The translations under genes and the position numbers were made by a program. This document shows, one piece after another, positions 12,456-56,797 of a DNA stretch of 58,163 nt (its first letter is position 1; every line of letters begins with the position of its first letter). Origin of the DNA: a virus. Under the pieces are notes generated by a model. It had not been told where the DNA came from, did not search any database, and was given only the letters and a program-made list of their open reading frames with translations. The stretch lies in the IMG/VR virus record IMGVR_UViG_3300048044_000016, positions 1 through 58,163 of that record; one strand, given 5' to 3'.

Positions 12456-14762
12456 TTATACTGTTGTGCTGGTGCTGGAAGAGCTGCTGCTCGTTGACGA
12501 TCCGATGTTCGCCAGAAGCGAAGTGTCGACGTTGAACTTGTAGATGATCTGTTCAGCCGGTGGCGGAGGCATAACGTTGATCTGGAAGGTTAACTTACCG
12601 GCCTCTAGATTGGCAGTTGGATTGTCCGAGGAGTTGTATGTGACCTTGCTGCCAGAAATCAATGCGCCACTCTGAATGAGTGAGTTGATGAAAGAGTTCA
12701 CTGCCGACAGAATCGTGTTGATAAGTCCGTTGGTGATGGGCTGATCGAGATAAGGGAGCGAGCTGTATTGGATGCTCTGCTCCACCACGTCGAGAGTCCT
12801 GCGGATCGAGATGAATGTCGTGACATTGCTGCTCGACGGAAAGCTCGAAGAGCGGTTTCCCCATACCCGGTATCCAGTCCCGTAGCCATTGAAAACGGTG
12901 ATGATGCCCTGAGCGTTCAGCGTGTTGGTATCGCTTGCGCTGTCATAGGCGCTCATGTAGAGGCTGACATCGGGACCCAAAATCCCGTTGATGACCGTAT
13001 TGGATGGCGAGTACCAGTAGCCGTCAGAAAGGTCTTTGCCGGATGTGGCACCAGCTACCCATGTGCTGTACGGGGTGTCAACATTCCCTGTCTTGTAGCC
13101 GAGGCTGACGGTACCCTGAGCGCTGATCGTTACGCCGGTCGGATCAATGATGCTGGTGGCCGACTTGAGCTGCCAGGGGAAGGTCAGGCCGAGGCGGTCG
13201 CTCGACTGATTGAACGCGTTGCCGGATGCCCCGCGATTGGCAACAGCCGTGCTCACGCCGATACCGGCAGGCGCGTCGGTGAAGGCATAGGCCCGAAGGG
13301 TAGTGGCCATGGCCAGCAATGCCGTACTGGTGGCCTGGTCTGTGAATGTAGGGGTAATCAGGAGCTTGGCAAACAGGCCCATCGTCTGGAATGTGGTCTG
13401 CAACGCCTGAATTCCGGTGTAGACGCCGCTATTGACGGTCCCGATGATGTCATTGGACGTCACCTTGGACGGGTCGGCATACACGCCTGTCACCTGCAAC
13501 GCCTGCGCGGAGGTGATTGCGCCGCCGCTCTTGGTATAGAGCAAACCGTTCACGTAGTCGATGGTGTAGTCGGTGCCCTCGACATAAGTGATTGATCCGG
13601 GCTGATTCTTCACAACAACCGTCGTCGGCGGTCCGGCAAAGGTGATGTTGAATGTCGCACCGGTACCGCTCCCAGAAGTGCTGGCCTGAGATACAGGGTT
13701 CGACGGCGTGGCCGAGTAACTGCCGGCCGTCGTGATGGTCGCAGTGTTCACGCCAAAGACGGCGGAATTGAACGTTGCCCCAGTTCCGAGTCCTGTAGAG
13801 CTTGCCTGCGTGAACGTCGCGCTATTGACCGTGAAGACGCCAGCATTGACGATGCTGAAGGTGGCCACGCCCATGGTGATTGCCAACTGAGCTCCAGTCA
13901 GCCCCGCGCCAGTCACCGGCTCAAGAGCGGGTGCGGTGGGGTTGACCGTGTAGGATCCTGCCACAGATATCGACAGGACTGCAGTGATTGCGCCACCGGC
14001 CACTGTCACGGATGCTTGGAACTTTATGCCGGTGCCAGTCGTGCCGGTCACGGTCTGAGTCCCGTTCGTGCCGCCGCTGCCGCCGGCCGCCACCGTGGCG
14101 CCCGTAACCTGAGTTGAGGTCACCGTCACTTGCGGAGGAGTTGATGCCGTCCCGCCCGTCAAGGTGATGCTGTCGCCGGCTGCGTAGTTGTGCGATGTAG
14201 CGCCGCCGGGAGCATTCACCGCCAGTGATACGAGCTTCGTTGTCGCGACGGTCAGGACCGCGGGAGTCGAAGCCGTGCCGCCGGCCAGGGTAATCGTGTC
14301 GCCTGTTGCATAACTGTGGCTTGCCGCGCCGCCCGCCTGCGCCACGGTGTCAACCGAAGCGGTGGAGAGGGGGGTGTTGGGCAAGCCTGGACCAATTAGG
14401 CCCATGTACCCGAGTGTCACCGGCACACTGTTGGATGCGGGTCCCGTCAGGGGGTTCAACGTAAACGTGCTCTGGTGCAGCAACGGATTGAACACGTCGA
14501 TGACGACAACAGAGCCAGCATTCTGTAGGCGAATATCGGCCAGAGCTTCGGGGATCGTGTAGCCCGAAATCAGTTCGCCAAAGTTCGAGTCCGAATTGGA
14601 GGTTGAGGTCAGGGTAGGAGTGTTGATTCCTGGTCCTGATCCTGACGTAGCTGACCACTGGGGAGCAGAGCCAATCAGGCCAATGACCGCCGAGTTGGTG
14701 ACCTGAATCGTATTGCCGCTGGTGTTGACCTCGGTTACCGTGATGCCATGGAAGAAGCTCAT
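12456..14762 (-). CDS. Tail sheath protein (FI family) with large inserted beta domain
   Basis: A 768-aa contractile sheath protein. I start at the ATG at 14762 (MSFFHGITVTEVNTSGNTIQ), which gives the canonical sheath N-terminus; the upstream in-frame extension is leader RNA. The C-terminal half has sheath signatures ('ADIRLQNAGSVVVIDVFN' earlier, then 'PTGVTIS..GTVSLGYKTG', 'YRVWGNRSSSF', 'FISIRRTLDVVEQSIQ'). Between residues ~135 and ~390 sits a Gly/Thr/Ala-rich insertion of repeated 'GTGATFN / AGSYT' units, making it far longer than the usual ~390-500 aa. Such insertions probably lie on the outside of the sheath and decorate it. Confidence 0.88.
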   Translation of the reverse strand: MSFFHGITVTEVNTSGNTIQVTNSAVIGLIGSAPQWSATSGSGPGINTPTLTSTSNSDSNFGELISGYTIPEALADIRLQNAGSVVVIDVFNPLLHQSTFTLNPLTGPASNSVPVTLGYMGLIGPGLPNTPLSTASVDTVAQAGGAASHSYATGDTITLAGGTASTPAVLTVATTKLVSLAVNAPGGATSHNYAAGDSITLTGGTASTPPQVTVTSTQVTGATVAAGGSGGTNGTQTVTGTTGTGIKFQASVTVAGGAITAVLSISVAGSYTVNPTAPALEPVTGAGLTGAQLAITMGVATFSIVNAGVFTVNSATFTQASSTGLGTGATFNSAVFGVNTATITTAGSYSATPSNPVSQASTSGSGTGATFNITFAGPPTTVVVKNQPGSITYVEGTDYTIDYVNGLLYTKSGGAITSAQALQVTGVYADPSKVTSNDIIGTVNSGVYTGIQALQTTFQTMGLFAKLLITPTFTDQATSTALLAMATTLRAYAFTDAPAGIGVSTAVANRGASGNAFNQSSDRLGLTFPWQLKSATSIIDPTGVTISAQGTVSLGYKTGNVDTPYSTWVAGATSGKDLSDGYWYSPSNTVINGILGPDVSLYMSAYDSASDTNTLNAQGIITVFNGYGTGYRVWGNRSSSFPSSSNVTTFISIRRTLDVVEQSIQYSSLPYLDQPITNGLINTILSAVNSFINSLIQSGALISGSKVTYNSSDNPTANLEAGKLTFQINVMPPPPAEQIIYKFNVDTSLLANIGSSTSSSSSSTSTTV

Positions 14763-14878
14763 ATCCCTCGACTCCTTTGCCGCTAAACGTGAAAAGGCCC
14801 GAGCAAGTCCAGCTTTGATAAGCCAGAATCGCTCGGGCCAAGTGCTTTGGTCCCGTCGATACAAAGTGTATCAGGTTC
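14763..14878 (-). promoter_or_regulatory. Promoter-leader module L1 upstream of tail sheath gene
   Basis: On the minus strand: a -10 box TACACT (14870-14865), four bases, ATCGACGGG (14860-14852), then a hairpin with a 9-bp perfect stem (14831-14839 / 14796-14804) enclosing an inner GCTTATCAAAGC stem-loop (14811-14824), followed by TTTT, a GGAG-type RBS and the sheath ATG. The same architecture occurs at 22286-22382 and 56702-56797. The hairpin plus T-run looks like a terminator inside the leader, implying attenuation or antitermination; that is inference. Confidence 0.6.
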
Positions 14879-18914: not shown

Positions 18915-18925
18915 TTCATTCCCTC

Positions 18926-18967
18926 CAAAAAATAAGGCAGGAGGCGTTTGGTTGCCGCCGCCTGCCT
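18926..18967 (-). terminator. Rho-independent terminator after the major capsid gene
   Basis: On the minus strand an 11-12 bp GC-rich stem with one bulge (arms 18956-18967 and 18935-18946) is followed by TTATTTTTT. It lies 22 bases after the capsid stop codon, just before the next gene's RBS. It would let the capsid message accumulate above downstream genes. Confidence 0.8.
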
Positions 18968-18988
18968 CATTGTAAATCCATCCGTAGG

Positions 18989-20650: not shown

Positions 20651-21400
20651 CTAGTTGCCGCCCAGGTCAATCTTGAAGTTGGGGTCATTGATCGACTTCG
20701 CAAACCCGCTGCCAGGGGTGCACATCAGGCCAAAAGCGCGGGCAGTTGCCTGCTCAGAGCTGCGCTGGTCGTTCGGGTCGGCTTCGGAAAGCGACTTGTT
20801 GATCATCCGATTGAAGTCGGCCTTTCCGTCGCTGGCCGGGAACACATCTCCGGTCGAACTGGCAACGAACAACTTCGGGCGACGGCCAGCAGAGGGCTGA
20901 TTCTCGATCACAGACATCTGACCCTTCAGGAAAGCGTTGTCGGCGATCAGTGGGGCGGTAGCTTCGGCCACAGCGGCCTTGACCATCGTCGCAATCGCAG
21001 CCGCCGAATAGGGCGAGTCTCCAGCGCCGCGGAAGGTGTTGCCCTCAACTTCGCCTTCAGTCATGCGCCGGGGGGAAAGCTCTTCCACGTTCTCCGAAGC
21101 AGGCTCTTCGCCCAAGTCAGTTTCCGCCTTCTCTCCATCCCATCCAGTCATGGCCTTGCCGAGTGCAGCGTGAGCCAGTTCGTGATGGTCGGCAATGTCG
21201 TTCATGTGTCCTGAAAGCGCCGTCAAGTGCTTCTTGAACTCATCGCCACCGTCGGCCGCCTTGCCCATGCACTTGTGAAGGGCTTCAAGCTCATCGACCG
21301 CTTTGCCGTGGGAGGCCGATGCCTTCTTGATGTGGTCATCGGCTTTCTTGATGGCCGCCTTATGCATTGCCCCGAAACGCTTCTGAAGGTCAGTTGCCAT
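20651..21400 (-). CDS. Nested in-frame scaffold protein (internal start in protease gene)
   Basis: Within the protease gene an AAAGGAGAG ribosome binding site lies about ten bases before an in-frame ATG at 21400, giving a 249-aa product beginning MATDLQKRFGAMHKAAIKKA. The product is helical and rich in Ala, Lys and His, as scaffolds are. This is the lambda C/Nu3 arrangement, in which a scaffold is translated from inside the protease gene. The RBS is as strong as those of independent genes here; expression is inferred. Confidence 0.55.
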   Translation of the reverse strand: MATDLQKRFGAMHKAAIKKADDHIKKASASHGKAVDELEALHKCMGKAADGGDEFKKHLTALSGHMNDIADHHELAHAALGKAMTGWDGEKAETDLGEEPASENVEELSPRRMTEGEVEGNTFRGAGDSPYSAAAIATMVKAAVAEATAPLIADNAFLKGQMSVIENQPSAGRRPKLFVASSTGDVFPASDGKADFNRMINKSLSEADPNDQRSSEQATARAFGLMCTPGSGFAKSINDPNFKIDLGGN

Positions 21401-22285
21401 GATGGTGCTCTCCTTTTGCTTGGTGCTGCCCGGCCAGTCGGCGGGTAGAAGATGTGTTGCGTTCAGCGCTTTCGCGCGAGAGATGATGTGAGCCTTGGCT
21501 TTCTCAGGGTCCGATGCGCGGCCAAAGGCTTTGACGGCGTTCTCAAGGTCCGAGACGTTCGCAATCGGATAGCTACCATCAGGAAGGGCGATGCCTTGGG
21601 ATGCGAGATGTTTGCGCTGCTTGTCGCTGAACTCGCGCTTCTCAAAGTCCGTATCGGCCAGAATCTTGTTCAGTTCCGTCATCTCGTCGGCGGTAAGTTC
21701 ATCGGACTCAACAGGACTCGGAACCGCTTCAGGAGCGGCCTTTGCGAGCTCAGGAAGTGCAATCTTGCCCATTCCGAGAATCGTTCGAAACGTGTCAAGC
21801 GCTTTTTCCATCAAAGTCTCGTTACTGGTTTGATTCTCCATCGACCCTCCAAAGGCGAGTCCCCCGGCAATCTTCACGATGTCGATGCGGCAGTCGGAGT
21901 TCGCTGGCCGGTCGACGAGGCTGATCTCTCGCAAGGAAAGCGCCTTGACCACATCGCCAACCTTCTCCAGCTTGGAACCGCCGATGCTGAAGCCCTTGTA
22001 GACGCCTTCCTTGCACAGTTTCCATGCGGCGGGATCAACGATCTTGGCGCCGATGTAGAGTCCTTTGGCGTCAATGTGGGCCTCTTTGGTCACGCCAACG
22101 GCATTGTTGGTGTGCATGGTCCTGATGTTCGCCCACTTCATGTAGTCGGGGAGGGCGGCCTTGATGGCGTCCAGCGGAACAATCTCCCCTTGCAGGTCCT
22201 TTGATGGTGTTGAGGCGTAACCCCAGACCATTCCGCTCTGCGCGTCCACCTTTTCAATCGGGAGAAATACGCTGAAATCGTCCAT
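20651..22285 (-). CDS. XkdF-like prohead protease fused to scaffold
   Basis: A 544-aa protein. Residues 1-145 match the XkdF-type prohead serine protease domain ('VWGYASTPSKDLQGEIV', 'DYMKWANIRTMHTNNAVGVT', 'DPAAWKLCKEGVYKGFSIGG', 'LREISLVDRPAN'). Residues ~195-290 have a linker resembling small Lys/Ala-rich head-associated domains ('KRKHLASQGIALPDGS'). The C-terminal half is a His/Lys/Ala-rich, highly helical scaffold-like region. An internal strong RBS and ATG (see 20651-21400) suggests a separate scaffold from the same frame. Its promoter-leader module L2 lies directly upstream. Confidence 0.8.
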   Translation of the reverse strand: MDDFSVFLPIEKVDAQSGMVWGYASTPSKDLQGEIVPLDAIKAALPDYMKWANIRTMHTNNAVGVTKEAHIDAKGLYIGAKIVDPAAWKLCKEGVYKGFSIGGSKLEKVGDVVKALSLREISLVDRPANSDCRIDIVKIAGGLAFGGSMENQTSNETLMEKALDTFRTILGMGKIALPELAKAAPEAVPSPVESDELTADEMTELNKILADTDFEKREFSDKQRKHLASQGIALPDGSYPIANVSDLENAVKAFGRASDPEKAKAHIISRAKALNATHLLPADWPGSTKQKESTIMATDLQKRFGAMHKAAIKKADDHIKKASASHGKAVDELEALHKCMGKAADGGDEFKKHLTALSGHMNDIADHHELAHAALGKAMTGWDGEKAETDLGEEPASENVEELSPRRMTEGEVEGNTFRGAGDSPYSAAAIATMVKAAVAEATAPLIADNAFLKGQMSVIENQPSAGRRPKLFVASSTGDVFPASDGKADFNRMINKSLSEADPNDQRSSEQATARAFGLMCTPGSGFAKSINDPNFKIDLGGN

Positions 22286-22382
22286 CTGGCTCCTGTAAAC
22301 GCAAAAAGGCCCGGACGATTGAGCTTTGATAAGCCGTCGCGTCCGAGCCAGATTGTTTCTGTACCCGTCGATTGAGATATTA
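22286..22382 (-). promoter_or_regulatory. Promoter-leader module L2 upstream of prohead protease
   Basis: On the minus strand: TG-G-TAATAT extended -10 (22382-22377), four bases, ATCGACGGG (22372-22364), TACAGAAAC, then a 10-bp stem with one mismatch (22340-22349 / 22308-22317) enclosing GCTTATCAAAGC (22322-22335) and followed by TTTTT. The gene start follows at 22285 with AGGAG. Same design as L1 (14763-14878) and L3 (56702-56797). No conserved -35 is visible, so a phage activator or extended -10 recognition is possible. Confidence 0.65.
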
Positions 22383-22411: not shown

Positions 22412-22446
22412 CAAAAAGAGCCCGACATCTTCGCGGGATGTCGGGC
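22412..22446 (-). terminator. Rho-independent terminator, leftward
   Basis: A perfect 10-bp GC-rich stem (22420-22429 with 22437-22446, 7-base loop) followed on the minus strand by TCTTTTT. It ends the leftward transcript of the small-gene chain (22489-25762) just before the L2 promoter. Confidence 0.85.
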
Positions 22447-23988: not shown

Positions 23989-24146
23989 TTGAGTTTCCCT
24001 TCGATTCGCGCCAGTGTCAGAAGGATTGACCCTATGGCGATGCAGATAAAGCATTGAGTGGGTTCTGTCTTCCAGATGTCAAGAGCCTTGAAAACGCAGA
24101 CGATTCCCAACATAGACGTCGCCGAATTCCAGAAAGGAAATCTCAT
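23985..24146 (-). CDS. Small membrane protein, 53 aa
   Basis: Starts MRFPFWNSATSMLGIVCVFK at an ATG overlapping the upstream stop as ATGA, with GGAGG just before it, and contains two hydrophobic stretches (residues 8-20 and 31-47, 'CFICIAIGSILLTLAR'). The upstream in-frame extension is a shadow of the neighbouring gene. A small two-helix membrane protein in the head-gene region; function unknown. Confidence 0.5.
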   Translation of the reverse strand: MRFPFWNSATSMLGIVCVFKALDIWKTEPTQCFICIAIGSILLTLARIEGKLK

Positions 24147-24736
24147 CCCTCCACCCACTTCCCCAACCCCTTCGCTACAGCGATGGTCGCCAGGGTCATG
24201 CTGCGCACCGTGGCGATGGTGCCGATGCTCACCACTCGCCCTTGGCTTTCCAGTTCGCGCATGATCTGCGCCTGGTTCCAGTCGGTGTGGAGCATCACCA
24301 GCGCGCGGACGGCATCGGTTGCGGTGTGCCTGGGGTTCAGAGCGTGCGGCGAGTCCTGATCTCCCAGAGGAACTGTACCGAGAGCGGCCTCGGCTTGCGC
24401 GGGTGCGTCCGCGGGCCATCCGGCATCCACCACGGCATCGATGATGGGATCGGCGGGCGCGGCGCCCTTGTAACTATCATTGCTGACAGGACCATCATGG
24501 CCGTCGAGGATGCCGAATCCGGGGCAATGCTCGGGGTCCTGATGGTGCTTCACTCGGATAGCTTGGGCGTTGTACCACTCGCGCGCCGGTTCGCCCAGTT
24601 TGAACCAGGCTTCATCGGAAGCCTTCGATACGGCCAGCACTAGGCGCCGCAAGTGATGTGCGTCAGGCTCGCCCTCAGCTTGTGGCAAGAACTCTGTGCC
24701 GGCCGCTGCCAGCAGTTCACTGTAGATAGTGCTCAA
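24143..24736 (-). CDS. Hypothetical protein with C-terminal HTH-like segment
   Basis: A 197-aa protein from a TTG (24736) that overlaps the upstream stop (TTGA) with AGGAG nine bases before it. The N-terminal half ('HHLRRLVLAVSKASDEAWFK', 'AREWYNAQAIR') is helical, the middle is Pro/Ala/Asp-rich, and the last 50 residues ('HTDWNQAQIMRELESQGRVV', 'IGTIATVRSMTLATIAVAKG') read like a winged helix-turn-helix. It might be a phage-specific regulator in this operon; not recognised as a family. Confidence 0.55.
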   Translation of the reverse strand: MSTIYSELLAAAGTEFLPQAEGEPDAHHLRRLVLAVSKASDEAWFKLGEPAREWYNAQAIRVKHHQDPEHCPGFGILDGHDGPVSNDSYKGAAPADPIIDAVVDAGWPADAPAQAEAALGTVPLGDQDSPHALNPRHTATDAVRALVMLHTDWNQAQIMRELESQGRVVSIGTIATVRSMTLATIAVAKGLGKWVEG

Positions 24737-24903
24737 GATTGCATCTCCTGTTTCTTCCTGCCGATCAGGCTTACGAGCAGGTTGCATTGGGTTGGGGTGA
24801 ATGTTTCGTGTCCCGGCCAGTTGTCCTCAATCAAGTTCAGGACCTCAATCATCGGCACGTGGGTCTTCTCGTAGACCTCGTCGATCATCTCGGGGAGCGT
24901 CAC
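24733..24903 (-). CDS. Small hypothetical protein, 56 aa
   Basis: A 56-aa product (VTLPEMIDEVYEKTHVPMIE then VLNLIEDNWPGHETFTPTQC...) from a GTG overlapping the preceding stop (GTGA), ending in a TTGA overlap with the next gene. AGGA lies nine bases upstream. Acidic N-terminal half and a 'NLLVSLIGRKKQEM' helix at the end. Function unknown. Confidence 0.5.
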   Translation of the reverse strand: MTLPEMIDEVYEKTHVPMIEVLNLIEDNWPGHETFTPTQCNLLVSLIGRKKQEMQS

Positions 24904-25762: not shown

Positions 25763-25790
25763 CCAGAGACCTCTTTCTGAAACTGGGATT

Positions 25791-25819
25791 ATTAAACCAT
25801 CACTCTCTTGATTTATCAA
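25791..25819 (-). promoter_or_regulatory. Leftward promoter with operator-like motif in its -35
   Basis: On the minus strand TTGATA (25819-25814), 17-base spacer, TTTAAT (25796-25791). The -35 lies inside CTTGATAAATCAAG (25820-25807), whose CTTGAT/ATCAAG arms are a perfect inverted repeat, and the -10 overlaps GGTTTAATAATC, another copy of the dispersed motif. A protein binding this motif would block the promoter of the small-gene operon starting at 25762. Confidence 0.55.
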
Positions 25820-25885
25820 GCGCTATTTTCGATAAGAGTCCTGATTCCCGCTTTGGGAATCTTCGCAGGTTATTAAACTTTTCTG

Positions 25886-25913
25886 TTGACATGCGTACCA
25901 GGGGTGCTATTCT
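25886..25913 (+). promoter_or_regulatory. Rightward promoter flanked by two motif copies
   Basis: TTGACA (25886-25891), 16-base spacer, TATTCT (25908-25913). Copies of the near-palindromic motif flank it: GGTTATTAAAC just upstream (25869-25879) and GGTTTATCAAC just downstream (25916-25926). It precedes the 27-aa ORF at 25964 with AAGGAG. With the leftward promoter at 25791-25819 it forms a divergent, co-regulated control region. Confidence 0.65.
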
Positions 25914-25963
25914 CGGTTTATCAACTAATTAGTTGTTGTCAATCAACCACACAAGGAGCAGAA

Positions 25964-32599: not shown

Positions 32600-33843
32600 G
32601 ACAGGATTGTGAATTGCGGCCGATTAAAGAAGGCAGCTTCCGGTTTCAATGGCAACTGCGTTAGTTGAGGACTTGCGTCCCAACCTCCGTCTTACATTGC
32701 CTCCACCGGCAGTAGCGCCTATTCCTGACGCCAGTATCCGTAAACCTTCGTCTCGGATATTCTTTGCCGCGTTTATGTCGCGGTCGTGATGCGTGTTGCA
32801 AGATGGGCAGGTCCAAGAGCGTACATCTAACGGCATCTTTCCTGCATGGTTTCCGCACATAGAGCATATTTTGCTGGAAGGAAAGAACCGATCAACCTTT
32901 ACAAATGACTTCCCGGCACGCAACGCTTTATACTCTAAAAACGATATAAATGTTGCCCACCCTGCGTCCGAAACTGCTTTTGCAAGATTGCGGTTGGCCG
33001 TCATTCCCTTCACGTTTAAGTCTTCCGTAACAATGACTTGGTTCTCGTCTACTATCCTACGAGAGACTTTATGAAGGTAATCACAACGCTGGTTTGTGAT
33101 GCGTTCATGAACTCGTGCAACTTGAATACGTGCTTTGTTGCGTGAGCTAGAACCTTTCTTTTTGCGACTCAAATTCTGCTGTTTGCGCTTGAGATTCTTT
33201 TCAGAATTGGCAATGAAACGCGGATTATCGAACTTTGATCCATCGCTAGTGATTGCCAGATGTGTCAATCCTACGTCTACACCGATTGCTTTTCCATCGG
33301 TAGAAACAGGCATCATCGGAATTGAATCATCCGTCAGAATTGATGCGTAGTAGTGGCCACATGGGTTCTTGCTCACCGTGACCGTCTTGATTCTGCCCAC
33401 GATCTCACGATGGATTACAGCTTTAACTTTTCCGACCTTGGGAAGATAAACCTTACTTCCGTCTAACTTCACGCGCTGCGGATATTGAATCGACTGCTTG
33501 CCGTGCTTTGACTTGAAACGAGGATACCGCGCACGCCTCTCAAAGAAGTTCAAGAACGCTGCCGCCAGGTGACGGATAGAAGACTGGAGGGCTTGGGAAT
33601 CGGCATCTTTTAGCCATTCGTATTCCGATTTCAGGCCAGGCAAATAATTAGCCATCGCCACAAACGTCAGACCTCTGCCGGTTTCCTTGTATGCTTTCTG
33701 TGTTTCGCTTAACGCCCAATTCCACGCCCAACGCGCGCATCCAAACTGAAAAGACAGGAGATTCTCTTGTCCCACGGTTGGATAAAGGCGAATTTTGGTC
33801 GTGTTAAGCACTACATTTAATCTTAAGCATGAGAAGATTAAAT
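32600..33843 (-). mobile_element. TnpB-only IS200/IS605-like element (no TnpA)
   Basis: The element carries one intact tnpB gene on the minus strand. At its 5' side is a perfect 12-bp inverted repeat hairpin (33813-33845) like IS200/IS605 left ends, immediately preceded (minus strand) by TTGAC, a sequence of the type used as target/TAM in this family. The 3' boundary is not clear and is placed just after the tnpB stop. The segment is free of the GTCCTGA motif that is dense elsewhere (none between 32558 and 34050), consistent with recent arrival. It lies between dps and packaging genes without breaking either. Confidence 0.65.
32624..33811 (-). CDS. tnpB: TnpB RNA-guided nuclease (OrfB of IS605 family)
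   Basis: A 395-aa, apparently intact TnpB. N-terminal 'LYPTVGQENLLSFQFGCARW' and 'RYPRFKSKHGKQSIQYPQ' are family marks. RuvC catalytic residues are present: Asp in 'AIGVDVGLTHLAI', Glu in 'IVTEDLNVKGM' and Asp in 'NTHHDRDINAAKNI'. A zinc finger ('KICSMCG...WTCPSC') lies between the last two. GTG start at 33811. The guide (omega) RNA should overlap the 3' end of the gene and read into the flank below 32624. These proteins can bias inheritance of the element by cutting empty target sites. Confidence 0.92.
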   Translation of the reverse strand: MLNTTKIRLYPTVGQENLLSFQFGCARWAWNWALSETQKAYKETGRGLTFVAMANYLPGLKSEYEWLKDADSQALQSSIRHLAAAFLNFFERRARYPRFKSKHGKQSIQYPQRVKLDGSKVYLPKVGKVKAVIHREIVGRIKTVTVSKNPCGHYYASILTDDSIPMMPVSTDGKAIGVDVGLTHLAITSDGSKFDNPRFIANSEKNLKRKQQNLSRKKKGSSSRNKARIQVARVHERITNQRCDYLHKVSRRIVDENQVIVTEDLNVKGMTANRNLAKAVSDAGWATFISFLEYKALRAGKSFVKVDRFFPSSKICSMCGNHAGKMPLDVRSWTCPSCNTHHDRDINAAKNIRDEGLRILASGIGATAGGGNVRRRLGRKSSTNAVAIETGSCLL

Positions 33844-33854: not shown

Positions 33855-34361
33855 TCAGCGAGTCGCCTCGAAGAGAAACCACGCGCGCCGCTCCGCTTCG
33901 TCGATCCACACCTCAATCATCGCGGTTGACGCATAGTCGTCTGCCAGGGCGCAGACTGTATGGGCGCTCCGCAGTTGGGCGATAAGAGTCCTATTGTCGG
34001 CTAGAAGTTCCTTGAGCATCACCTCGGGTGCCGGGCCGGGCTCGTCTGAGTCCTGAATCCGCTGCAAACGGGCAATCTGGCCAATTGACCGGATCGTGGT
34101 GCCGCCGATCTTCCGCACCCGCTCCGCAATGTCGTCCGTGATGCCGTAGATTTGCGCGGCTTGCTCGTCGAGCATCAGGTGCCAGTCGCGGAAGTGAGGG
34201 CCGGTCATGTGCCAATGGAAGTTCTTTGTCTTCAAGTACAAAGCAAAGCAGTCGGCCAGCAGCGCGTTCAGCGACTCGGAGAGTTTATCAACGTTCGCAG
34301 GACTGAAACCGTCTGCAACGTCTGAGCCTTGATAATCTCCGGTGGAGAATGGGAAGTCCAT
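33855..34361 (-). CDS. dps: Dps/ferritin-like DNA-protection protein
   Basis: A 168-aa Dps-family protein. The ferroxidase-centre pattern is visible: 'ALYLKTKNFHWHMTGPHFRD' followed by 'WHLMLDEQAAQIYGITDDIA' and 'ERVRKIGGTTIRSIGQIA'. The C-terminal helix reads 'DDYASTAMIEVWIDEAERRA'. Start at the ATG 34361 (GAGGTG eight bases upstream); the longer frame runs into the leader. Dps dodecamers bind DNA and detoxify peroxide/iron. A phage-encoded copy might protect packaged or replicating DNA or the host cell; role inferred. TnpB element inserted just after its stop. Confidence 0.88.
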   Translation of the reverse strand: MDFPFSTGDYQGSDVADGFSPANVDKLSESLNALLADCFALYLKTKNFHWHMTGPHFRDWHLMLDEQAAQIYGITDDIAERVRKIGGTTIRSIGQIARLQRIQDSDEPGPAPEVMLKELLADNRTLIAQLRSAHTVCALADDYASTAMIEVWIDEAERRAWFLFEATR

Positions 34362-34415
34362 GGTGGTCACCTCGTGGACATTGTAGGCGTTTTGGGTCCT
34401 GATGCCCAACAGAAA

Positions 34416-34440
34416 AGCCCCGGCTGGTTGGCTCGGGGCT
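34416..34440 (-). terminator. Hairpin with T-run in dps leader
   Basis: AGCCCCG / CGGGGCT stem followed on the minus strand by TTTT, about 55 bases upstream of the dps start. Upstream on the same strand is ATCAACGGCAGACAGAAG, loosely like the ATYGACGGGTACAGAA box of leader modules L1-L3, but without a visible -10. It may be an attenuator or a diverged fourth leader. Confidence 0.5.
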
Positions 34441-34611
34441 CTCTGGTGGATCACTTCTGTCTGCCGTTGATAGGTGTGGGGGTGTCGGTTACGCTTGCTG
34501 AGGGCGGAATGCGACGAGGAAGGGAGTTGCGCCACTTCTCCCCCACGTCTGTAATTCTACCACCAGATGTTGTGTCCTGAAGAACTTTATAACGCAACTG
34601 CGAAAAATAAT

Positions 34612-55322: not shown

Positions 55323-56420
55323 TTAGTTGTGGTGCGCGTGCATACTCAAATTCCAAGAGCTACCGCCCGCGCCGTTTTGCATCGTTTGGGTAACACGAAT
55401 GCTTAATGCGCCACCGCTTGCTGCTGGAAAGGCACTCTCGTTATCTACGGTGCAATGACCATTGACCGCCGCGCTAGATGGATGTGCGTCACAGGACAAC
55501 TGATAGGCGCTGTCCGGCATCGCCCCTGGCAGATACGCCGTCGCCGTGCATTGCACGGGTTGCCCCGTTCCGGTAGTGCACGCTCCAGTTACCGTCCAGT
55601 AATAATCAACCAACGTAGAAGACCCCGCAACAACCGCAGTTACTCTTCCTTGGGAGTCGGTCGTAACACTGGTGGGATTTGCATATGTCCCGGATGTGCC
55701 GACTGACGGCAGCCCGACATTTGTCTTGCCGGTCCCGTTTGTGGCAACTACCGTTCCATCGAAGTTCAGGGTCGGCTGTTGAGTAAGCGCTGATCCTGCC
55801 TCCTGCACCGTCTGATAGTAGAAGGATGGGATGCTTCCGATCTGGCCCCACAGCACCTGAGCGCAGTTTGCAGACCAACTCGTCGTATCGCCCTGTGAGT
55901 AGAGTCCCGATCCGCACTGTGTAGGCGAATGGTCAGACGCACTAGCAGTACTAGCATTTCCACTCACGTTGCCTGTGACATTGCCTGTGACATTGCCTGT
56001 CAGCGGGCCGACGAATCCGGCGGCGTCTGTGAGTGCCCCGGTCATTGTTCCACCCTTCGACCAGTCGTCATCTAAGGTCACATCGGGAACAAAATACTGA
56101 CCATATGATGAGTTGATAAGTAGACCGTAGTGCCCGACGTGCGCGCAGAAGAAGTAGTTGCCACCCGCATCGGCCGTAAATGGATTTGTGGGAGTCGCCG
56201 TGCTGAGCGCCGTCGAGGTGTAGATGCTGACCTTGTTCGCAATGCAGTTGGATGCTGTCGATCCTGGTGTGCAGAGCGCAACCGTGGCGTATGGTATCGG
56301 AGCGATGACACCGTTCGAGATGGTCTGTGCGACGTTGTTGAGGCAAACGCCGATTGGAGCTTGGGCAAGCGCGGCGACAGCGAAAAGCCAAAGAGACGCG
56401 AGGGTAAGGATTCGCTTCAC
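55323..56420 (-). CDS. Second tail fibre-like protein with signal peptide
   Basis: A 365-aa protein beginning with a Sec signal (MKRILTLASLWLFAVAALAQ). The next ~100 residues ('GVIAPIPYATVALCTPGSTA', 'TPTNPFTADAGGNYFFCAHV', 'GQYFVPDVTLDDDWSKGGTM') resemble fibre N-terminal domains; then fibre-shaft 'TGALTDAAGFVGPLTGNVTG' and a Cys-containing C-terminal domain ('YYWTVTGACTTGTGQPVQCT'). Together with 770-2893 it suggests two alternative or complementary receptor-binding fibres. It overlaps the zinc-ribbon gene upstream. Confidence 0.75.
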   Translation of the reverse strand: MKRILTLASLWLFAVAALAQAPIGVCLNNVAQTISNGVIAPIPYATVALCTPGSTASNCIANKVSIYTSTALSTATPTNPFTADAGGNYFFCAHVGHYGLLINSSYGQYFVPDVTLDDDWSKGGTMTGALTDAAGFVGPLTGNVTGNVTGNVSGNASTASASDHSPTQCGSGLYSQGDTTSWSANCAQVLWGQIGSIPSFYYQTVQEAGSALTQQPTLNFDGTVVATNGTGKTNVGLPSVGTSGTYANPTSVTTDSQGRVTAVVAGSSTLVDYYWTVTGACTTGTGQPVQCTATAYLPGAMPDSAYQLSCDAHPSSAAVNGHCTVDNESAFPAASGGALSIRVTQTMQNGAGGSSWNLSMHAHHN

Positions 56421-56701
56421 AGGGCCTCCGGAGACTTAACCAACTGCGGTCCAGAAACTACGGCCTCTTGAGGTTTTGAGTCCTGATTCGGTGCCTGTTG
56501 CTCAATGCGCCCAACGATCTGCGTCGAGATGATCTTCCTGCACTCCGGATTCCCGCAGAAGATGATGGCGCCAATCATGCCGCCAGGAAAGATCTGGTTC
56601 ATGATTGAGAGTCGGGCAGGATCGTCTGCACAATACGGGCAGGCTGGCAGCATAACAGGCGTCACAATTGCGGTTTCGTTCGGTTCAATCTTCGTTTCCA
56701 T
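56417..56701 (-). CDS. Zinc-ribbon protein, 94 aa
   Basis: METKIEPNETAIVTPVMLPA followed by 'CPYCADDPARLSIMNQIFPG', 'IFCGNPECRKIISTQIVGRI': a CxxC ... CxxxxC zinc ribbon, then a Gln/Pro/Ser-rich tail. ATG 56701 with GGAGGG upstream, directly after leader module L3. The only recognisable gene under L3 apart from the fibre that follows. Function unknown. Confidence 0.65.
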   Translation of the reverse strand: METKIEPNETAIVTPVMLPACPYCADDPARLSIMNQIFPGGMIGAIIFCGNPECRKIISTQIVGRIEQQAPNQDSKPQEAVVSGPQLVKSPEAL

Positions 56702-56797
56702 CAGTGTTCCCTCCAAAGTGAAAGACTCGCCACTGAGCCTCTTATCAAGGTCCTGTGGCGAGTCAGACTGGTTCTGTACCCGTCAATGCCGATTGTA
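56702..56797 (-). promoter_or_regulatory. Promoter-leader module L3 upstream of zinc-ribbon/fibre genes
   Basis: On the minus strand TACAAT (56797-56792), four bases, ATTGACGGG (56787-56779), TACAGAACCAGTCTG, then a perfect 10-bp stem (56755-56764 / 56724-56733) enclosing a CTTGATAAG inner stem-loop (56738-56750), and CTTTC. Same -10-to-box spacing as L1 and L2. The inner motif has the opposite orientation to L1/L2. Confidence 0.65.

Follow-up and report, generated by a model that had tools for sequence, protein, structure and literature searches.

A promoter-proximal structured leader RNA before structural genes in a myovirus lineage

Known phage leaders and the modules of this virus

In phage lambda, the Q-dependent late promoter pR' is followed by a leader terminator, tR', before the late genes. 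The lambda nut site consists of boxA and then boxB, a hairpin with a GNRA-like pentaloop. Class III promoters of phage T7 are served by the phage polymerase and have leaders with a 5' stem-loop, and 5' stem-loops of phage late mRNAs act as stabilisers or processing sites. In phage HK022, putRNA antiterminates in cis by way of the zinc-binding domain of RNA polymerase. This RNA of about 70 nt folds into two long stem-loops, distinguished by specific bulges and by a triplex, and its sequence is common to the copies (PMC9378689). Stoperators of cluster A mycobacteriophages are a short asymmetric DNA motif scattered over the genome, including transcribed regions (PMC9283540).

The window analysed here, which is the whole 58,163-base virus record, codes for myovirus genes such as sheath, portal, and head protease. 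An earlier note described three modules of common layout in it (L1, L2, and L3), all of which were confirmed on the minus strand. Each is built, in this order, of a -10 hexamer, 4 nt, ATYGACGG(G), usually TA, hairpin 1, hairpin 2, a U-tract, the RBS, and the gene. The features are as follows.

14870-14792 (-): L1 module
14865..14870 (-): L1 -10 hexamer TACACT, extended (TGA in front), then TTGT; spacing to GACGG the same in L2 and L3 and kept in relatives
14852..14860 (-): L1 conserved initial transcribed sequence ATCGACGGG
14838..14850 (-): L1 hairpin 1, CCAA-AGCAC-TTGG, with covariation; the final G doubles as the base of hairpin 2
14797..14838 (-): L1 hairpin 2 with an internal small stem-loop (fold z -4.3)
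14815-14821 (-): L1 apical TTATCAA in hairpin 2
14792..14795 (-): L1 U-tract TTTT, one C past the hairpin
12456..14762 (-): tail sheath gene, 3' of L1 (PHROG 23, E 4e-66)
22420..22446 (-): ordinary intrinsic terminator of upstream genes, preceding the L2 promoter
22382-22303 (-): L2 module
22377..22382 (-): L2 -10 hexamer TAATAT, extended (TGG in front), then CTCA
22364..22372 (-): L2 conserved initial transcribed sequence ATCGACGGG
22349..22361 (-): L2 hairpin 1, CAGA-AACAA-TCTG
22309..22348 (-): L2 hairpin 2
22326-22332 (-): L2 apical TTATCAA in hairpin 2
22303..22307 (-): L2 U-tract TTTTT
20651..22285 (-): head maturation protease/scaffold gene, 3' of L2 (PHROG 80 and 21715)
56797-56720 (-): L3 module
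56792..56797 (-): L3 -10 hexamer TACAAT, then CGGC
56779..56787 (-): L3 conserved initial transcribed sequence ATTGACGGG
56764..56776 (-): L3 hairpin 1, CAGA-ACCAG-TCTG
56725..56763 (-): L3 hairpin 2 (fold z -5.1)
56742-56748 (-): L3 apical TTGATAA in hairpin 2
56721..56723 (-): L3 weak U-tract (C-UUU-C)
56417..56701 (-): gene for a small zinc-ribbon-like protein, 3' of L3 (CPYC...CGNPEC in the translation); as listed, the ORF includes a TTG further upstream, at 56716
55323-56420: fibre-like gene after the zinc-ribbon-like gene

The sequence ACAGAAxCAxTCTG, earlier reported for two of the three modules, is in fact hairpin 1 and is found in all three, L1 having the compensated form. The TTATCAA loop was seen as claimed in L1 and L2 but is inverted to TTGATAA in L3, and the pyrimidine-rich ending corresponds to a U-tract after every module, the tract of L3 (CUUUC) being weak. 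As for the genes behind the modules, which had been taken for structural ones, sheath and protease are clearly identified, while the fibre is a weak match to phage_tail_N only (E 0.0045, below the Pfam cut-off). Their gene content suggests that these are late genes.

The promoter is of the sigma70 type, defined by a -35 hexamer at 16-18 nt or an extended -10. L1 and L2 have the extended -10 (TGn) without a clear -35, and in L3 neither is clear. In the divergent relatives G006 and G004 (see below), the predicted -10 hexamers TAACCT and TAATCT are preceded, at a spacing of exactly 17 nt, by TTGACA and TTGACT, respectively. Because these -35 hexamers played no part in building the covariance model of the module, they support both the promoter and its register. 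Transcription is expected to start near ATYGACGG. Of the proposed phage late promoter coupled to a regulatory RNA, what stands is a promoter with a structured transcribed leader before structural genes; "late" comes from gene content, and sequence does not distinguish between an attenuator, an antiterminator, and a protein-binding leader.

Distribution and covariation

In the covariance model, L1, L2, and L3 score 75.3, 78.3, and 68.7 bits (E 2e-16 to 9e-15). The next independent match in the window has 13.5 bits, and the search found no copies there beyond these three. Since L1-L3 were part of the model's input, the independent evidence comes from other genomes. The exact sequence pattern is found in 59 stretches of IMG/VR, and related contigs of this database contain at least 29 distinct variants of the module. 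Four genomes, the window and G001-G003, have all three modules. Single modules were detected by the covariance model in G006 (38.4 bits, E 2.4e-6), G005 (37.6 bits, E 3.6e-6), and G004 (25.9 bits, E 0.0025), each directly before the protease gene. These are divergent relatives of about 60 kb, whose proteases are 52-58% identical to that of the window. The earlier note had made its claim depend beforehand on a covariance-model search for homologues with covariation in related phages, and these were found.

Matches of a broader pattern outside the lineage reach at most 22.8 bits and were set aside as chance-like. The score of G004 is just above this best pattern-selected chance locus, and its position supports it. 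L244/L245 have a weak match in the same place (13.4 bits, E 0.05), in which a -10 can be recognised and both stems pair. Unrelated or distant loci picked without the sequence pattern give up to 13.6 bits, so L244/L245 rest on position and inspection. The position of L2 is ancestral, as divergent lineages carry the module at the protease gene and the positions of L1 and L3 are found only in the close clade. More distant phages lack the module at their protease gene and have intrinsic terminators immediately in front of its RBS, in tandem in L242/L085 and of a plain TTCG type in L259, L260, L270, and L273.

Hairpin 1 is 13 nt long, with a 4-bp stem and a 5-nt loop, ANCAN. Hairpin 2 has an outer stem of 9-11 bp, an internal loop, a small inner stem, and TTATCAA or TTGATAA at the apex. 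The two abut in most copies. Stem pairs of hairpin 1 in the relatives include CAGA/TCTG, CAGG/CCTG, CTTG/CAAG, CTCA/TGAG, CAAA/TTTG, and CCAA/TTGG, and CTGA likewise keeps its complement. With few exceptions, the loop is ANCAN across these stem variants. That the stem varies freely and the A, C, and A of the ANCAN loop are conserved suggests that hairpin 1 is recognised by its loop. The G at the junction is invariant; it closes hairpin 1 (an invariant C-G pair) and could also form the outermost pair of hairpin 2 (G-C in 27 and G-U in 2 of 29).

At the sheath-gene locus of the relatives, the flanks with promoter and RBS are near-constant, and the hairpin sequences diverge strongly with pairing kept. 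That stem differences compensate, as first read from L1-L3, holds for the family. Distant members included, 93.6% of cells are paired in alignment A3, which was fitted to the covariance model, compared with 73.5% after shuffling and 27-50% in slid controls. Both sides have changed at 15 of 18 pairs in this alignment. The MAFFT alignment A1 gives 93.3% (75.5% shuffled, 27-49% slid). Template switching can produce both compensatory changes and inverted loops even where RNA is not under selection (PMC8794818, PMC8604942), and covariation therefore overstates the number of independent events.

Rfam does not match the modules, either those of the window (gathering and permissive E-value) or those of the relatives, and the module RNA family was not found in the literature searched. 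The modules are a structured RNA family with covariation, new to Rfam, and constitute a promoter-proximal structured phage leader. The lineage appears to be one of uncultured soil- or peat-type myoviruses, judging the habitat by IMG/VR metagenome numbers. No close cultured phage relative was found, and prophages in GTDB genomes gave only distant relatives of the protease, with no module.

Other features of these genomes include phage-encoded permuted tmRNAs in G001 (L201:12330-12749(-), RF04321, 87.7 bits) and G003 (L207:4052-4358(+), RF04321, 97.7 bits), on both of which ARAGORN agrees. None was found in the window or G002. The tmRNA may hint at a proteobacterial host. The window also has a TnpB-like (IS605 OrfB) gene at 32624-33811(-), adjoined by a ferritin-like gene (33855-34535); none of the neighbouring genes examined was recognised as TnpA.

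Function of the leader

A sigma70-type promoter with a built-in attenuator or elongation-control leader RNA is the best reading of the modules, held tentatively and a little short of even confidence. The transcript would start near ATYGACGG and at once fold the two abutting hairpins, and the leader would end in the U-tract about 65-70 nt past the start. The leader would serve as a built-in attenuator during elongation, in that hairpin 2 and the U-tract make RNA polymerase pause or terminate on part of the transcripts. Hairpin 1 would be the recognition element for whatever lets the polymerase continue. As the invariant junction G can pair in either hairpin, hairpin 1 and the full terminator stem would compete for it. 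Termination, control of read-through by antitermination, and a trans-acting factor are thus parts of a predicted mechanism.

Hairpin 2 with its U-tract resembles an intrinsic terminator. In nearly all copies, L3 and those of the distant relatives among them, three U residues follow the stem. The stem is strong and the 3-5 U are usually one C away; with hairpin 1 intact, this C stands between stem and U-tract in most copies. Most copies have a negative d'Aubenton-type score, L3 being among the worst, and G006, L244, and L1 of G001 score above zero. Because of the intervening C and the mostly negative score, the leader is described only as probably an attenuator. A terminator scan listed neither L1 nor L2, the loops of which exceed its limit. 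A terminator-like hairpin of a sequence unrelated to the modules (GGCAGGCGG...CCTGCC, TTATTTTTT) lies elsewhere in the window (18915-18988(-)), directly before an RBS and with TACAAT in front.

The arrangement resembles lambda pR'-tR' in that a promoter and a terminator-like leader precede late genes. The modules differ in the distance to the U-tract (about 65-70 nt), in having several copies per genome and a conserved transcribed hairpin 1, and in that conserved sequence is lacking in front of the -10 of L2. Nothing antiterminator-like was recognised among the genes of the window, and no Q-like gene was found, the scanned early-region proteins giving no match to a Q family (Pfam; PHROGs for part), which a divergent factor could escape. 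Hairpin 1 is similar to lambda nut boxB as a short hairpin with conserved residues in a pentaloop early in the transcript. However, its loop is ANCAN, inspection revealed no boxA-like sequence, and no N-like gene was found, so that it is not assigned to the nut sites. Among the non-structural proteins tested by tblastn, only that of 24143-24787 (late region) has a relative in G006. With this exception these proteins have no tblastn match in G006, which keeps the module, and a host partner is therefore mildly favoured.

Alternatively, the hairpins may be a 5' stabiliser or translation leader that shields abundant structural mRNAs from decay or sets a processing site, the U-tract being incidental. 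All three modules stand before structural genes (sheath and protease clearly identified), the structure is kept while the stem sequence is free, the RBS is downstream of the hairpins, and the U-tract of L3 is poor, all of which fits this reading. However, each lineage conserves U residues immediately behind the stem, and a plain stabiliser needs neither the ANCAN loop nor the initial transcribed sequence. We regard it as a possible but rather improbable explanation. The T7 class III promoters are similar in their number, common initial transcribed sequence, structural genes, and leader hairpin; the modules, in contrast, have host sigma70-type -10/-35 elements and two hairpins with a U-tract.

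The loop motif allows a role at the DNA level as well, because TTATCAA is about eightfold over-represented in the window (29 vs 3.7 expected). TTATTAA is also in excess (7 vs 0.5), and TTATCAA is 8-10-fold over expectation in five related genomes (G001-G005). The sites occur in several frames and both orientations, which rules out codon bias as the source, and 6 of the 29 are in the small intergenic fraction of the window. These 7-mers are conserved above control 7-mers (79/69/62% vs 46/46/37%). In nearly all modules of the close clade and in G004 the apical loop is TTATCAA or TTGATAA, with the variants TTATTAA/TTAATAA. Its orientation flips among close relatives at one locus: the inner loop of L3 in L005, L006, and L012 is the reverse complement of that in the other relatives. 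Duplex TTATYAA might thus be an operator whose binding protein, from phage or host, blocks polymerase or loads it, with the hairpin serving chiefly as a frame for the site, and a role in duplex DNA would explain the indifference to orientation. On the other hand, the modules of G005, G006, and L244 lack the motif and keep the hairpins, so the motif is not essential to the family, and an operator leaves hairpin 1 and the stem covariation unexplained. The cluster A stoperators are likewise dispersed, an analogy for the dispersed motif only. They are repressor sites oriented with transcription and are 13 bp rather than 7 bp long, TTATCAA is not strictly oriented and sits in an RNA hairpin loop, and reversal of a stoperator site abolishes repression (PMC9283540). 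On balance, an operator is unlikely to be the main function.

Two other observations concern short motifs and promoters in these genomes. A plus-strand sigma70-type promoter (TTGACA-16-TATTCT) at 25789-25930 of the window has four TTATYAA sites within 140 bp and precedes two small plus-strand ORFs inside a minus-strand region. CAGGAC occurs 173 times (35 expected), about equally on the strands, as an excess of the close clade only (window and G001-G003); in G004-G006 it is near or below expectation.

The earlier note also considered an HK022 put-type element. On such a reading, the nascent two-hairpin RNA would itself attach to host RNA polymerase, which could then pass downstream terminators with no phage protein involved. 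As in putL (PMC9378689), the transcript indeed opens with two adjacent stem-loops just past a phage promoter, and the retention of the module in G006 fits a host partner. However, put stem-loops are long and sequence-specific, with a triplex, and serve early genes. The modules have a short hairpin 1 of 4 bp and freely varying stems (9-11 bp in hairpin 2), with a U-tract after the second hairpin and structural genes behind. They are not members of the put class, and a put-like action is distinctly unlikely. Chance or functionless paralogous copies are disfavoured as highly improbable: the three modules could derive from one copy and template switching can maintain hairpins mutationally (PMC8794818), but the position before the protease gene is kept at 52-58% protein identity and unrelated loci give no match.

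Significance of the module

Taking the attenuating leader together with the loop motif, a bolder and rather doubtful proposal is that a compact phage element of about 80 bp joins promoter, recognition hairpin, and attenuator and is reused at three structural operons. It would work through host RNA polymerase and need no conserved phage factor dedicated to it, and its loop would hold one of the sites (TTATYAA) of a phage DNA-binding network that spans the genome. Because the module is small and each genome can have several copies, reporter assays can directly measure how it affects start, pausing, termination, and mRNA stability. If put-like, the modules would add to the antiterminators that act without a protein. 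Should the loop motif prove to be an operator, they would represent a stoperator-like network tied to attenuation.
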